A DNA stretch of 64,000 nt from contig NZ_CP007595.1 in the NCBI RefSeq assembly GCF_000785535.1, forward strand, positions 3,742,439 through 3,806,438, read 5' to 3'. The stretch's first letter is position 1. Each line of letters starts with the position of its first letter. This DNA is from Arthrobacter sp. PAMC 25486. Its GTDB lineage: Bacteria; Actinomycetota; Actinomycetes; Actinomycetales; Micrococcaceae. This document shows, in pieces, positions 4,141 through 61,544 of this stretch. The translations under genes were made by a program, and so were the position numbers. The notes under the pieces are model-generated. The model was not told the origin of the DNA, made no database searches, and saw nothing but the letters and a program-made list of their open reading frames with translations.

Positions 4141-7507
<3,367 letters not shown>

Positions 7508-7777
7508 CCGCCAACGGCGACGGCGCCGCCGGACTCATTAAAACTCGCTAAATTGATCCTGACCCGTATCGGGTTTGGCCTGTTAGCGACTTGCACGCGA
7601 TGGAATTGGAGCCCACACCACTGGGGGCCATCTTGGAATTGCTGTTGGCCGACGCTTAGAAGGGTGCCCCAAGCACGGCCAAGCAGCGCAGAACAGCGTC
7701 CGGAAACACGATTTCCGGGCGCTGTTCTGTATTCAAGTGTTGCATTCAAGTACTGCGGGCCCAAGGAAATGGGAGGA
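7508..7777. other. Convergent gap between lacZ and tetR
   Basis: The gap contains a strong hairpin at 7689-7729. A short open frame on the plus strand (about 7557-7659, ending …MELEPTPLGAILELLLADA) has no start with a ribosome binding site and could be the tail of a lost gene; I could not identify it. Confidence 0.35.
7689..7729. terminator. Strong bidirectional hairpin between lacZ and tetR
   Basis: An 18-bp stem (arms 7689-7706 and 7712-7729, one G-U) with a 5-nt loop. It lies between two convergent genes and is well placed to terminate both. Confidence 0.8.
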
Positions 7778-8410
7778 TTACGATGCGCGGTTGGCTGTAC
7801 CTGGGACGAGTACTTTTTGGATTGCCGGGCCAACGAGGCGAATGAGCGTCTCGGAGTCGGCTTCGGCCAAGAGGGGGACGCCGATGATGCGGCGGCTGGT
7901 AACGAGACCTACGAGCATCGCTGAGGCGAGGCCGGCCCGTAACGCGCTTTCGGAATCATCCCCGATACGGTCTTTTGACCCGCCGACCAGTCTGGACTGG
8001 ATGAAGTCCGCGAGCTGTGTGCTTGCGTTGTTGTTGACGATGGCTCCGCGCAGCATGGCCATCAAGGGCTCCGACTCTTCTGGGGATCCCTCCCAAGCCT
8101 GAAGGTAGGCGCGGACTACACGTTCTCCGAGGTGTTCGTCGGGGCCCTCGAAGGCTGTGTCAAATAGGGCAATGACCGTCGGGGGAATGGACATGACGGC
8201 GGCGAAAAGCGCTTCCTTTGAACCGAAAAATTGCATGACTTGGGATGGGTCGACGGCGGCATCTGTGGCGATGCTTCGAATAGTCGTCTCTGTGAAACCT
8301 TCGGTGGCAAATCGTCTTCGGGCCACTTCAAGGACGGCGTTCCGGGTGCTCCCGCTGCCCGGGGGGCGTCCCCTCCGTCGTCCGGGGGAAGTCAGTTCCT
8401 GCTTAGTCAT
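7778..8410 (-). CDS. TetR/AcrR family transcriptional regulator
   Basis: A 210-residue repressor-type protein. The N-terminal helix-turn-helix is typical (ARRRFATEGFTETTIRSIATDAAVDPSQVMQFFGSKEALFAAVM, residues about 30-72), preceded by a basic arm RRRGRPPG. The C-terminal ligand domain resembles the actinobacterial TetR_C_17-type proteins. It is divergent from the CocE-like hydrolase gene, with about 120 nt between the starts, so it most likely represses that gene and itself. The intergenic stretch 8425-8462 is AT-rich, and is the likely promoter/operator area. The inducer is unknown. Confidence 0.92.
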   Translation of the reverse strand: MTKQELTSPGRRRGRPPGSGSTRNAVLEVARRRFATEGFTETTIRSIATDAAVDPSQVMQFFGSKEALFAAVMSIPPTVIALFDTAFEGPDEHLGERVVRAYLQAWEGSPEESEPLMAMLRGAIVNNNASTQLADFIQSRLVGGSKDRIGDDSESALRAGLASAMLVGLVTSRRIIGVPLLAEADSETLIRLVGPAIQKVLVPGTANRAS

Positions 8411-53089: not shown

Positions 53090-53640
53090 ACGCCGGGCGG
53101 GGATCCCGCCAGGCCGTCCGGCACCGCACGAAATGGTCCCAAGCCCACGAGATGATTGATGAACTCACCTCCGGAGGACACCGGGCGCGGGCCCGGACTT
53201 CCCCGCTACCCCGACACGGTCCTTGCAGGCCCTGGCCTTGGGGGCCGGGCGGAAAGACCTGCATCAGGTGGCTTGGCACCACGGCACCCCAACCGGTCCC
53301 CGCAACGCCAAAGCGGCCACGAAATCACGTTTCCTGGCCATCCGGATCCGCCCGGCCCATCGCGATATCCCGCTGGATGAGGATCATTCCCTGCCCGAGG
53401 GTGGATGCTGGTGGCATGGCCCGTGCACGAGCCGGCACCAACCGATTACTGGATCAGCGCCCTGCCCGCCGACACGCCCCTGAAAACTCTCGTCAGGCTC
53501 GCCAAGAGCGACAAGCGCATCGAGCATGACTACCGGGAACTAGAGAACGGGCTCGGCCTGGACCGCTTCGAAGGCCGATCCTGCAGCGACCACCACCGCC
53601 ACCTCACCCCGGTCACCGCGGCCCAACTCTTTTCACCAGA
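53090..53640 (+). pseudogene. IS701-family transposase remnant
   Basis: Pieces of an IS701-like transposase are spread over several frames: AVRHRTKWSQAHEMIDEL (about 53108-53163), SLQALALGAGRKDLHQVAWH (about 53220-53280), SRFLAIRIRPAHRDIPLDED, and TDYWISALPADTPLKTLVRL … EHDYRELENGLGLDRFEGRS (53440-53580). The last block is strongly diagnostic. Frameshifts and a missing N-terminal half show it is dead. The frame runs on into the TPP riboswitch, which is an artefact. Confidence 0.8.
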
Positions 53641-53770
53641 AAGCGGCTCCCCACCCCAAAAGACCGCCAGTTTCCACGGGGCAGCCACAGCAACACTTCG
53701 CAACGCTGAGTCGAAGCGGGAGGGCGCAGCGTTGCCTGCCGCCGTCCGAACCGTGGTAGCTTGGGCCGTG

Positions 53771-53855
53771 GACACGACACGGGGTGCCGCCTGGCGGCTG
53801 AGAGTTAGACCCGTTGAACCTGATCTCGATAATCCGAGCGAAGGGATGCCGGTCC
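53771..53855 (+). ncRNA. TPP (thi-box) riboswitch aptamer
   Basis: The conserved thi-box elements occur in the right order: GGGGTGCC (53781-53788), GGCTGAGAG (53796-53804), ACCCGTTGAACCTGATC (53809-53825) and AATCCGAGCGAAGGGA (53831-53846). The closing P1 helix is weak by eye (GGAC 53770-53773 with GTCC 53852-53855). The 3' end of the aptamer is complementary to a segment that can mask the ribosome binding site of the next gene; see the expression platform entry. Confidence 0.92.
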
Positions 53856-53927
53856 TGCAGCAATGACGAAGTGTGCCCTGTGCCTGTCCTTCGCGCATTC
53901 CTGGCATCCTTTCGCCCCGCTGAAAGG
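53838..53927 (+). promoter_or_regulatory. Riboswitch expression platform (SD sequester/anti-sequester)
   Basis: The SD AAAGG of the SDR gene (53923-53927) can pair within CCTTTC (53908-53913) / GAAAGG (53922-53927), a 6-bp stem with 8-nt loop. The alternative is GCGAAGGGATGCC (53838-53850, the aptamer 3' end) with GGCATCCTTTCGC (53903-53915): 13 pairs with one G-U, extended by GG/CT. Ligand binding would hold the aptamer end, free the CCTTTC strand and close the SD. So TPP should turn translation off. Confidence 0.8.
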
Positions 53928-53935
53928 TGTACGAC

Positions 53936-54700
53936 ATGCAAATTAAAGACCAGATTGTACTGATTACCGGAGCCGGCCGCGGACTAGGTGCCGATGTGGC
54001 CCGTTCCTTCGCCCGGGAAGGTGCCAGAGTGGTGCTGAACTACCGCAACAGTGAGGCGGCGGCACGGGAACTTGCCGCTGACATCGGATCGGAACACGCC
54101 ATCGCCTTGCACGCCGATGTCACCCGCGCCGACGCGGTCCAGGCCTTGGTGACTGCCGCAGCCGATCATTTTGGTGCGCCCATCACCACCGTCATTAACA
54201 ACGCTTTGCCCGATTTTTCCTTTAACGGCGACGGGCGGTCGAAGGCTGACGGCATTGGCTACGGCGAATTTACGGCACAGTTTTCCGGCGTTGTGGGGGG
54301 TGCGCTGAACACGATTCAGGCGGTCTTGCCGGGCATGAAGGATGCCGGGTTCGGCGCCATCGTGAATATTGGCACCAACCTGTTTCAAAACCCCGTGGTG
54401 CCCTATCACGACTACACCGCGGCCAAAGCTGCTTTGCTGGCACTGACGCGCACCTTCGCTGCCGACCTGGGTCCGTCCAAAATCCGTGTGAACATGGTCT
54501 CCGGGGGGTTGCTGCGCACCACCGACGCCTCTGCCGCCACACCCGAGCAGGTCTTCGACTTGATCGCTGGCGGAACACCTCTGCGCAAGGTCACCACGCC
54601 GTCCGAATTTGCTGATGCAGTGCTGTTCTTCGCCTCACCTTGGTCCCGGGCCGTGACGGGACAAAACCTCGTGGTCGACGGCGGACTGGTGATGAACTAG
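53936..54700 (+). CDS. SDR family oxidoreductase under TPP riboswitch
   Basis: A 254-residue classical short-chain dehydrogenase/reductase with the NAD(P)-binding motif TGAGRGLG and the active-site YHDYTAAK (Tyr-x3-Lys). The usual catalytic Ser falls in the segment NIGTNLFQNPVVP. Closest in texture to FabG-like 3-oxoacyl reductases, but acting on an unknown substrate. ATG 53936 is chosen because AAAGG is 8 nt upstream; the GTG at 53927 overlaps that site. It is followed after 2 nt by a flavin monooxygenase gene, so both are in one riboswitch-controlled transcript. Confidence 0.9.
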   Translation: MQIKDQIVLITGAGRGLGADVARSFAREGARVVLNYRNSEAAARELAADIGSEHAIALHADVTRADAVQALVTAAADHFGAPITTVINNALPDFSFNGDGRSKADGIGYGEFTAQFSGVVGGALNTIQAVLPGMKDAGFGAIVNIGTNLFQNPVVPYHDYTAAKAALLALTRTFAADLGPSKIRVNMVSGGLLRTTDASAATPEQVFDLIAGGTPLRKVTTPSEFADAVLFFASPWSRAVTGQNLVVDGGLVMN

Positions 54701-54702
54701 TG

Positions 54703-56040
54703 ATGGGAATTGTGGGCGCCACCAGCACGCGGCAAATGCACATCAACGCTTTCCTCTTCGGTGCGGGGCACCACACCATGGGCTGGCGGCATCCGGATTC
54801 CAGCGCCGACCGTGTCGGGGAAATATCCTATTTCGAGGAGCTGGCCCAGCTGGCTGAAAGCGGCTGCCTTGACGCGGTCTTCTTCGCCGACGGGCACAGC
54901 GTCAACCGCCAGTATTCAGCAGGCGTGCCCTCGCTTTTGGAACCGATCACGGCACTGAGTGCCATCGCCCGGGCCACGAAACACATCGGCCTGGTCACCA
55001 CGGTGTCCTCCAGCTTCTACACGCCCTTCCATGCCGCCCGCATGCTGGCCTCCCTGGACCACATCAGCGGCGGCCGGGTGGGCGCAAACATAGTCACCTC
55101 CATGTTCGACGCCGAGGCGCAAAACCATGGATTCGCCGCTCTGCCTAAGCACGCTGAGCGCTATGAGCGGGCGGATGAATTCGTCCGGGTGATCCAACGG
55201 CTCTGGGATTCCTGGTCAGACCAGGCGTTGCTCAAAGACCGGGAGTTGGGAACATTTATTGATCCGGAACAGATCCAGCCGATCAACCACACCGGGAAGT
55301 ATTTCTCCGTGGCGGGGCCGCTGAATGTCCCCCGTTCCCCGCAGGGCCAGCCGGTGCTGTTCCAGGCCGGTTCCTCGGAGGCAGGACGGGATTTTGCTGG
55401 ACAATTTGCCGAAGCCATTTATTCGGTGTCGTGGGACAAGGACTCCGCCATCGAATTCGCCACGGACATGCGTGCGCGACTGGCTGCTGCCGGACGAGGA
55501 GGGGCCACGGTGCCGATTCTTCCCGGCCTAGTCACCTACGTCGCCGCCACACGCGAGCAGGCCATGGAGAAAAAGCGCGCATTGGACGCCTACCTGGACA
55601 TTGACACAGCCATCGTCCAGCTCAATATTTTCACGGGGATGGACTATAGCGGGCACGGACTCGATGACCTTGTGGCCCCGCTGCCCCCGGTAGTAACCTT
55701 CACGGGGCCCCAGGGCCGGTACCTCACGGTGCAGCGCATCATTGCGACGATGGCGCCCACCTTGCGCGAATTGCTGGGTTTTTTGGCCGCCGGCGGTGGC
55801 CACGCCACCATGATAGGCACCGCCAACGAGGTGGCGGATGAAATTCAGGAATGGTTTGAGTCTGGGGCCTGCGATGGATTCAACCTTATGTGTCCCGCCT
55901 ACCCTGAATCGCTCCGAGATTTTGTGGGATTGGTGGTGCCCATCCTGCAGGAACGGGGGATCTTCCGTTCCTGCTATCAGGGGAGCACCCTGCGGGATAA
56001 TTTGGGCCTGGCGCGTCCCCAGCCCAGTAGTGCCCCGTAG
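54703..56040 (+). CDS. LLM-class FMN-dependent monooxygenase (NtaA/SnaA/DszA family)
   Basis: A 445-residue luciferase-like oxygenase. The N terminus MHINAFLFGAGHHTMGWRHP, the VFFADGHSVNRQYS segment and SVSWDKD-region are typical of the NtaA/SnaA/DmoA group, which use reduced FMN from a separate reductase to oxidise amines, sulfur heterocycles or sulfides. ATG 54703 is 2 nt behind the SDR stop; the in-frame ATG at 54640 lies inside the SDR gene. A thiazole/sulfur substrate would fit the thiamine riboswitch, but this is inference. No dedicated reductase is adjacent. Confidence 0.9.
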   Translation: MGIVGATSTRQMHINAFLFGAGHHTMGWRHPDSSADRVGEISYFEELAQLAESGCLDAVFFADGHSVNRQYSAGVPSLLEPITALSAIARATKHIGLVTTVSSSFYTPFHAARMLASLDHISGGRVGANIVTSMFDAEAQNHGFAALPKHAERYERADEFVRVIQRLWDSWSDQALLKDRELGTFIDPEQIQPINHTGKYFSVAGPLNVPRSPQGQPVLFQAGSSEAGRDFAGQFAEAIYSVSWDKDSAIEFATDMRARLAAAGRGGATVPILPGLVTYVAATREQAMEKKRALDAYLDIDTAIVQLNIFTGMDYSGHGLDDLVAPLPPVVTFTGPQGRYLTVQRIIATMAPTLRELLGFLAAGGGHATMIGTANEVADEIQEWFESGACDGFNLMCPAYPESLRDFVGLVVPILQERGIFRSCYQGSTLRDNLGLARPQPSSAP

Positions 56041-56142: not shown

Positions 56143-56700
56143 ATGGCCGCGCCTGTCATGCCCGACCCTGCCGGCGTACTTTCGCTCATCTTTGGGAGAC
56201 GTATCTGCTGATTTGATCAGCCACCTGCCGCAACCCCTGGGCAACGCGCTGCTGTCCACCGACGCGGATGCCGTGGTCGGTGCGTAGTGGGGCAAGCACT
56301 CACTCGGGCGTTTGATACAGCGCAATGGCCAACTGTCGCCGCAAGCCTAACGCCCGTGCCGAGGCATCCGTGATCACCGTCGTCACGGACTGCAACCTCG
56401 CGGGGGTCTCCCCCCGCCGCAGGGACAAGCTCGTGGAGACCCAGGGCATCGACTCCCTGTTGAAATCACAGGTCTCCGGCATGGCGGCAGACCTTGATGA
56501 GCGTGTCGTCGCCTGCCGGGCCCGCCCCCTGACCGGCCCGCCCCTGACCCGCGCGGGCCCGTTCGCGTTCGTAGCCGCCGAGGCACTGAGGCTGAGGGTC
56601 CGTGAAGACCTGCGGATAAGCAACACGGTTGCCGTGGGTGCCCCAGTGTGAACGCGGTCGGGCGCCGCGACGTGCCCTGCTCCTTCCTCGCCTGGGAAGT
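56143..56700 (+). pseudogene. IS256-family transposase remnant
   Basis: The start resembles an IS256 transposase (MAAPVMPDPAGVLS, then in another frame DLISHLPQPLGNALLSTDAD and AVVGA, stop). After an internal deletion, a frame at 56325-56651 reads VITVVTDCNLAGVSPRRRDK, then LVETQGIDSLLKSQVSGMAA and AGPFAFVAAEALRLRVRED, the catalytic core region; the match then shifts frame at about 56640 (VNAVGRRDV). The C-terminal third is missing. Confidence 0.82.
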
Positions 56701-60965: not shown

Positions 60966-61544
60966 GTGAGCCTTCATAAAAAGATCTCCATCCTCGTCGG
61001 GAGCCTGCGCGCGGGCTCCTATGCCCGCCAAATCGCCATCAACACAATCGAACTCTTCCCATCCAACTACCATGCCGAGATTCTGGAAATCCGTGACCTG
61101 CCGCTTTATGATTTCGACTACGACGATCCCGAAGTCAGCAACAAGCTCACGCCCGTCGAATACACTCAATTCCGGGAAAATGTTAAGGATTCCGACGGCG
61201 TTCTTTTTATCACCCCAGAAAATAACCGAACCATCCCGGCCTGCCTCAAAAATGCGGTGGACATTGGTTCCAAACCCAACGGTGACGTGGCATGGAAGAA
61301 CAAACCAGTTGGCATCATCAGCCACTCTGTCGGACGCATGGGCGGATATAGCTCACAAAAGAACCTTCGCCTCGCACTGTCCTACTTTGATATGCCCACC
61401 CCGGGACAGCCGGAAGCGTTCCTCTCGCAATCGCCGAGTCTCATCAACGCTGACGGCACCATGCGCCTAGTTTCCACCATCAATTTCCTACAGGACTACA
61501 TCACCCGCTTCGCCCAAGTAGTAGAAGACCACCCACGAAAATAG
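60966..61544 (+). CDS. NADPH-dependent FMN reductase family protein
   Basis: A 192-residue flavodoxin-fold reductase. FMN phosphate loop GSLRAGSYARQIA at residues 10-22 and the segment ITPENNRTIPACLKNAVDIG, typical of the NADPH:FMN/quinone reductases. GTG 60966. It lies 35 nt after nrdF and shares the transcript, ending at a strong hairpin. It may reduce NrdI, replacing the missing NrdH/reductase functions, or serve elsewhere, for example in FMN supply to the monooxygenase at 54703; both are inference. Confidence 0.9.
   Translation: MSLHKKISILVGSLRAGSYARQIAINTIELFPSNYHAEILEIRDLPLYDFDYDDPEVSNKLTPVEYTQFRENVKDSDGVLFITPENNRTIPACLKNAVDIGSKPNGDVAWKNKPVGIISHSVGRMGGYSSQKNLRLALSYFDMPTPGQPEAFLSQSPSLINADGTMRLVSTINFLQDYITRFAQVVEDHPRK

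Follow-up and report, generated by a model that had tools for sequence, protein, structure and literature searches.

What do two oxidoreductases do under the control of a thiamine pyrophosphate (TPP) riboswitch? The question is raised by a locus within a 64,000-nucleotide stretch of Arthrobacter sp. PAMC 25486 (contig NZ_CP007595.1, positions 3,742,439 to 3,806,438; hereafter the window), where a riboswitch precedes genes for a short-chain dehydrogenase/reductase (SDR) and a flavin mononucleotide (FMN)-dependent luciferase-like monooxygenase (LLM). An earlier note on the window had read the locus as a thi-box with translational control over two genes for a salvage step, acting on a thiazole, a pyrimidine or a damaged form of thiamine. 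Computation recovers the riboswitch, the gene pair, its conservation, its presence in operons with thiM, thiE and thiD in relatives, and an accompanying thiamine genotype. On balance we lean towards a TPP-repressed thiamine salvage operon in which the pyrimidine would be freed by the LLM and then the SDR, the response to TPP, the direction and cofactor of the SDR, the substrate and the chemistry all being predicted.

We began from the leader. The thi-box belongs to its proposed family, since the Rfam model RF00059 matches the window once, over the full length of the model, at 68.0 bits (gathering threshold 54.3); the genome as a whole (4.59 Mb, one contig) has four TPP riboswitch matches, three of them over the cut-off. 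The 13-bp pairing claimed for the 3′ end of the aptamer was also recovered, between 53838-53850 and 53903-53915 with one G-U pair, and can be extended to 15 pairs with a second G-U. Part of the downstream strand has an alternative partner, 53908-53914 forming 7 bp with 53921-53927, the segment containing the Shine-Dalgarno sequence. Among 11 distinct close leaders, 93.9% of the alignment cells of the long helix were paired versus 40-54% when the strands were slid by 1-3 columns, and 96.1% of those of the sequestor versus 31-70%, two sequestor pairs having changed on both sides. Support for the platform is limited by the thin covariation of the long helix (in these leaders no pair changed on both sides, 8 of 15 were invariant and the aptamer strand was unchanged) and by the sequestor score being equalled by 58 of 500 shuffles; when the whole leader was folded alone, 35 of 200 shuffles equalled or bettered it (z −1.0). 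No terminator-like site was found behind the aptamer, the sole one detected between 53000 and 57300 lying on the opposite strand at 56624-56636. This model fits a classic translational switch. At low TPP the 3′ part of the aptamer would pair with the downstream strand (13-15 bp), leaving the Shine-Dalgarno sequence free and both genes translated; with TPP bound, the downstream strand would be released and would cover it. Of the translational control seen in the earlier note, the platform stands (paired strands, a sequestor over the Shine-Dalgarno sequence, no terminator), and the TPP response itself becomes a prediction from sequence.

The gene content was as had been described, an SDR followed after a 2-nt gap by an LLM of the NtaA/DmoA type (Table 1). 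The SDR scores 422.8 bits against NF006393, for which the cut-off is 292 and the NCBI name 3-oxoacyl-ACP reductase (ACP, acyl carrier protein), and the LLM 510.9 bits against TIGR03860, for which the cut-off is 279.7. We rejected a FabG-type role in fatty acid metabolism for the SDR on its score against the TIGR01830 equivalog (124.1 versus 297.75 bits) and its gene context, and RutA-like ring opening for the LLM on TIGR03612 (61.6 versus 498.3 bits). All four SDRs scanned (window, L134, L135 and L137) exceed the NF006393 equivalog cut-off, and the name attached to that model is probably wrong for these four members. All 13 orthologs in the alignment retain the Thr-x12-Tyr-x3-Lys motif of the SDR, and their strand 2 terminates in Asn-Tyr in 12 cases and in Asp-Tyr in L025; by SDR rules, such an ending leans to NADP(H) and reduction. 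Relatives of the LLM with solved structures, identified by sequence search, include YtnJ, DszA, ethylenediaminetetraacetate (EDTA) monooxygenase and riboflavin lyase, and C-S or C-N bonds are the targets of several such enzymes.

Table 1. Features of the riboswitch-SDR-LLM locus (window coordinates).
Feature	Position	Strand	Basis
TPP riboswitch aptamer (THI element)	53770..53863	+	Rfam RF00059, 68.0 bits, E 3.1e-11
Anti-sequestor helix, 5′ strand (3′ part of aptamer)	53838..53852	+	pairs with 53901-53915
Anti-sequestor helix, 3′ strand	53901..53915	+	pairing and comparison of leaders
Sequestor hairpin (53908-53914 paired to 53921-53927), covering the Shine-Dalgarno sequence	53908..53927	+	pairing and comparison of leaders
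Shine-Dalgarno sequence GAAAGG, 8 nt before the SDR ATG	53922..53927	+	sequence reading
SDR oxidoreductase, 254 aa, NF006393; proposed pyrimidine-aldehyde reductase	53936..54700 (ATG 53936)	+	family models; orthologs behind thiM-thiE-thiD
FMN-dependent LLM, 445 aa, TIGR03860 NtaA/DmoA; proposed oxidative cleavage of pyrimidine-CH2-X	54703..56040 (ATG 54703)	+	family models, trees, motif

The arrangement is not peculiar to this genome. The order riboswitch-SDR-LLM was found across the window's family and in Corynebacterium, Brevibacterium, Rhodococcus, Bacilli and a Pseudochrobactrum plasmid, and its recurrence in many genomes led us to reject chance or an insertion in one genome; the earlier note had allowed that the two genes might lack the riboswitch in every relative, and many relatives have it. 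Locus sets overlap between scans, so counts apply to each scan and not to independent genomes. Scanning named genomes yielded 34 loci that encode a relative of the LLM, and Rfam was run on three batches. In the first, 10 of 11 sources had a TPP riboswitch, the contig of the eleventh (L013) beginning inside the SDR. The second had one in 9 of 11, including an SDR-less Lactobacillus locus (L017) and the doubtful L026, with L020 and L022 showing a text pattern only. In the third only L033 of 10 had one, the other nine LLMs being 42-47% identical with no SDR found. L029 and L030 showed no TPP element by text pattern, the only check applied to them. In the window's family, 34 of 139 genomes are pair genomes, by which we mean an LLM of at least 52% identity with an SDR beside it, a line drawn after the identity distribution had been seen; 120 of the 139 have some LLM at E 1e-60 or better. 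Rfam placed a riboswitch upstream in all 20 family loci submitted, in 17 of another set of 20 sources (those without being L020, L022 and the second copy L080) and in all three plasmid loci with SDR and LLM (Pseudochrobactrum, Rhodococcus DMU1 and Mesobacillus).

Wider searches extended this distribution. Besides the Lactobacillus centre genome, 26 of 348 Bacilli genomes encode an LLM 66-92% identical to that of Mesobacillus, and of the 20 such loci fetched (L148-L167) 17 have a riboswitch at the cut-off. Within a single order of Actinomycetota, the threshold was passed by 22 of 298 genomes (23 loci): L168 (67%) shows the text pattern and carries an SDR, which is missing from the other 22 loci (about 50%). 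That pattern is loose, also matching the beginning of the LLM in L185 and L189. In the 121 genomes of the family of Lactobacillus there was no LLM match beyond the centre genome. Confinement to the window's family, as a phylum-wide search at 1e-110 had implied (7 other genomes, 43-45% identity), was rejected on these wider searches. We also rejected as a Bacillota case the Sporosarcina beigongshangi locus L026 (contig NZ_JADHDY010000010.1), since the contig has 66% GC and its LLM groups with that of G024, of the window's own genus; judged by composition and grouping, it is probably contamination of the public assembly. Support from Bacillota comes instead from Mesobacillus, 17 of the 20 Bacilli loci and L017. 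The last (Lactobacillus sp. Sy-1, 5807-7860) carries a TPP riboswitch, the LLM and then a flavodoxin-type NAD(P)H oxidoreductase in place of the SDR, in a genome with seven TPP riboswitch matches. A second SDR-LLM copy within one genome (G000:C1:526907-528969, L080 4908-6970; 59% and 51-52% identical) has an LLM match covering only residues 9-325 and lacks a riboswitch at the cut-off; it appears to be a paralog in decay.

The neighbourhoods of the pair in relatives indicate its metabolic role. In G035 the order is TPP-thiM-thiE-thiD-SDR-LLM on two similar contigs, the LLM match being in two pieces, and in Neorhizobium and Gemmobacter the SDR ortholog is last in a TPP-thiM-thiE-thiD-SDR operon, with no LLM beside it. 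G021 reads TPP-SDR-LLM-TPP-ThiD-MFS-ThiM-ThiE (MFS, major facilitator superfamily); in Enteractinococcus (G110, L023) another riboswitch likewise comes after the LLM, ahead of thiD, an MFS transporter, thiM and thiE. In G046 and G070 the pair and a YkoEDC-like transporter, itself preceded by a TPP riboswitch, are transcribed divergently. On three Rhizobium plasmids (L140, L145 and L147) the SDR comes after thiD, and on L146 rough gene calls recognised the SDR alone; the riboswitch was found by Rfam on L140, L145 and L146 and by text pattern only on L147. Because in relatives the pair (G035) or its SDR (Neorhizobium and Gemmobacter) shares an operon with the known salvage genes thiM, thiE and thiD, we assign the pair to thiamine salvage, in which, on this gene context, it very probably has a role. 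The salvage step proposed in the earlier note thus gains support.

Three of the neighbourhoods have further features. G001 (L085 236-4165) has two TPP riboswitches on the same strand: an LLM lacking an SDR comes immediately after one of them, and thiM after the other, further down. In G034 (L081 3392-8804) a TPP riboswitch, the SDR and an LLM in two pieces are followed by fragments of thiE and by another riboswitch with thiO. In Enteractinococcus an S-adenosylmethionine (SAM) riboswitch (L023 4531-4631) lies opposite the SDR-LLM operon, before methionine-type ATP-binding cassette (ABC) transporter genes.

Which half of thiamine the pair would serve was addressed by genotype. In the window genome thiG was found, and genome search gave no match to thiC and none to thiM; the other TPP sites, one of them below the cut-off, precede an energy-coupling factor (ECF)-type transporter, ThiD-TenA and ThiO. 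With thiG present and no thiC or thiM match, the organism should make the thiazole and need the pyrimidine, 4-amino-5-hydroxymethyl-2-methylpyrimidine (HMP), which it would not make by the known route; the usual thiazole kinase appears to be absent. The genotype table of the family covers 135 of the 139 genomes, leaving out G001 (LLM only) and G034, G035 and G119 (partial LLM matches). The thiC-minus/thiG-plus genotype is over-represented among pair genomes, at 22 of 34 versus 21 of 101 others (Fisher p 4.7e-6); comparison inside genera, which only partly removes phylogenetic dependence, gives an odds ratio of 7.5 (chi2 5.8). No thiM was found in 18 of the 34, and the pair occurs in none of the 15 genomes without thiC, thiG and thiM. 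From its own and the family genotypes, the pair appears likely to serve the pyrimidine side, which narrows the earlier choice between thiazole and pyrimidine.

The thiazole side has its own evidence. Starting from a conjugated or oxidised thiazole, the pair might recover hydroxyethylthiazole for ThiM: the operons of G035, Neorhizobium and Gemmobacter include thiM, and at Bacilli locus L151 the gene after the LLM resembles thiM by eye. However, all seven sampled genomes of the window's genus, its own included, have thiG and no thiM match, and 30 of the 34 pair genomes have thiG, so that we consider this reading unlikely. Far less probable is an oxygen-dependent bypass of ThiC, in which the pair would build HMP from a precursor not derived from thiamine; in its favour, thiC went unmatched in 26 of the 34 pair genomes, but the gene is present in the other 8 (in one as a partial match), and the organism's own TenA and ECF-type transporter behind TPP riboswitches point to uptake and salvage.

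For salvage of the pyrimidine we tentatively propose a chemistry by analogy with known enzymes, in which the LLM would cleave pyrimidine-CH2-X to the 5-formyl-pyrimidine and the SDR would reduce this to HMP. The LLM, with FMNH2 and O2, would hydroxylate the methylene of pyrimidine-CH2-X, a thiamine breakdown or base-exchange product; X would leave, and the remaining 4-amino-5-formyl-2-methylpyrimidine would be reduced by the SDR. ThiD would then phosphorylate HMP, and ThiE would join the product to thiazole phosphate, which the organism should make itself. More tentative still is a generalisation to widespread oxidative thiamine salvage, in which the LLM might free the pyrimidine from thiaminase-type base-exchange, sulfite-cleavage or oxidative-damage conjugates and the SDR return the aldehyde to HMP. 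If true, members of at least three phyla (Actinomycetota, Bacillota and Pseudomonadota) could recycle thiamine destroyed by others, the extra step in vitamin B1 salvage would help to explain the pyrimidine supply of thiC-minus strains, and functions would be given to two families now known only as '3-oxoacyl-ACP reductase' and 'LLM class oxidoreductase'.

The LLMs behind TPP riboswitches group in one clade. In a maximum-likelihood tree of 84 LLMs, the 50 TPP-labelled rows all lie on one side of a branch (support 100/99), L017 being a long branch; in a wider tree of 150 rows, 73 of 73 TPP-labelled rows fall together with 17 homologs without known context and with none of the 60 others (0.999). 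The labelled rows have AGGGH at positions 363-367 in 73 of 73 cases; of the 60 others, at least 37 carry G(G/A)RGH there. Labels were assigned by locus and not by score, and so include L013 (no upstream DNA on the contig), L020, L022 and L168 (text pattern only) and L153 and L154 (no match at the cut-off). LLM rows interrupted by in-frame stops or matching over a short length were left out: L052, L084, L001, L110, L111, L080 and L081 from the 84-LLM tree and L149 from the motif alignment.

This loop bears on a sulfonate version of the chemistry. Pyrimidine-methanesulfonate forms when (bi)sulfite cleaves thiamine, and the LLM could desulfonate it to the aldehyde and sulfite, leaving the SDR to make HMP. 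Several relatives without the riboswitch (42-47% identity) adjoin ABC transporters that by eye look to be of sulfonate type, TauD or an MsuE-type FMN reductase, and the oxidation of alkanesulfonates to aldehyde and sulfite, described in the available part of PMC8234197, also counts for this version. The alkanesulfonate monooxygenases SsuD and MsuD belong to the LLM superfamily and form aldehydes, as the window LLM would; the latter has a different loop motif and reaches only 78.5 bits against the alkanesulfonate monooxygenase model TIGR03565 (cut-off 518.2). Against the sulfonate version, the neighbours differ in other relatives (another kind of ABC transporter at L141, amino-acid-type at L035 and L036), and the AGGGH loop, matched to the MsuD loop by eye and not by structure, lacks the Arg of G(G/A)RGH. 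In the same part of PMC8234197, MsuD needs the Arg of its RGGA loop and R296A is inactive. We therefore regard a sulfonate substrate as improbable.

A last alternative is that the two enzymes have separate substrates, the SDR acting on a pyrimidine or thiazole aldehyde and the LLM on intact or damaged thiamine, with only TPP control in common. Each gene is indeed found without the other beside it, but the two are adjacent in all 30 ortholog loci of the window's family set and in all 20 Bacilli loci, and we give this alternative little credence.

Several observations weigh against the joint salvage of pyrimidine by LLM and SDR that we favour. Absence of thiC alone is not significant, either in the family (26 of 34 versus 58 of 101, p 0.065; within-genus chi2 2.4) or in Bacilli (16 of 26 pair genomes versus 27 of 54, p 0.35), and 8 of the 34 pair genomes retain thiC. 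The pair is itself defined by the retrospective identity line given above, and in 5 of the 34 pair genomes a stop was counted inside the LLM match. At the cut-off, Rfam finds no riboswitch in three of the 20 Bacilli loci. The LLM occurs without an SDR before it in G001 and Lactobacillus, and the SDR without an adjoining LLM, in two Caballeronia cases with neither a riboswitch at the cut-off nor a thi gene in the sequence inspected. Many of the best-scoring homologs, such as those in Oceanimonas and Burkholderiaceae, are without known gene context. Finally, no FMN reductase gene adjoins the pair in the window, the one at 60966-61541 lying beyond nrdI and two further open reading frames; such a neighbour is usual, not strict, for NtaA/DmoA monooxygenases.

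Comparison with known systems places the proposed operon beside several others. As an RF00059 element, the window riboswitch is typical in sequence and structure, being over the gathering score and having a translational-type platform. It differs in its genes: a survey of TPP regulons in 255 genomes (PMC3766115) has neither 'monooxygenase' nor 'dehydrogenase' in its main text, and the available parts of it on these regulons do not name them. The rhizobial thiMED operon (PMC3898782 and PMC2434198) is similar in combining a TPP riboswitch with salvage genes, and on the plasmids we examined an SDR ortholog follows thiD; these papers, in the parts available, name thiMED only, whereas the window combines its SDR with an LLM, away from thiM, thiE and thiD. 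The TenA/YlmB salvage of base-degraded thiamine (PMC5627462, available part) also returns HMP to ThiD, with tenA under TPP control in two of those genomes. That route is hydrolytic, whereas the proposed SDR-LLM route would be oxidative and then reductive, and the window genome also has a ThiD-TenA gene. RcaE ('riboflavin lyase', 5w48), which belongs to the same wider family as the window LLM (E 4.7e-61), is an FMN-dependent monooxygenase that oxidatively cleaves the ribityl chain from riboflavin, according to the available part of PMC12746152; this oxidative cleavage of a vitamin is catabolic, whereas the window genes should be made only at low TPP. The best sequence match with a solved structure is YtnJ/CmoJ (MoxC, 6ask; 326 bits), which acts in cysteine salvage (PMC8234197, available part) and for which no TPP link was seen in this analysis. 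No description of an SDR/LLM pairing behind a TPP riboswitch was found in the open-access literature, a scope outside which lie the supplementary regulon tables of PMC3766115 and most subscription papers; to that extent the earlier statement that such a step is not described stands, and the novelty of the SDR-LLM salvage route is provisional.

Around the operon, the upstream open reading frame 53405-53866 matched no Pfam family, and a fragment of a Mutator-family transposase (PF00872) lies downstream of the LLM at 56325-56648; the SDR-LLM operon may sit among mobile remnants. Elsewhere in the window, 38739-38840 matches the group II intron model D1D4-3 at 40.7 bits against 32.

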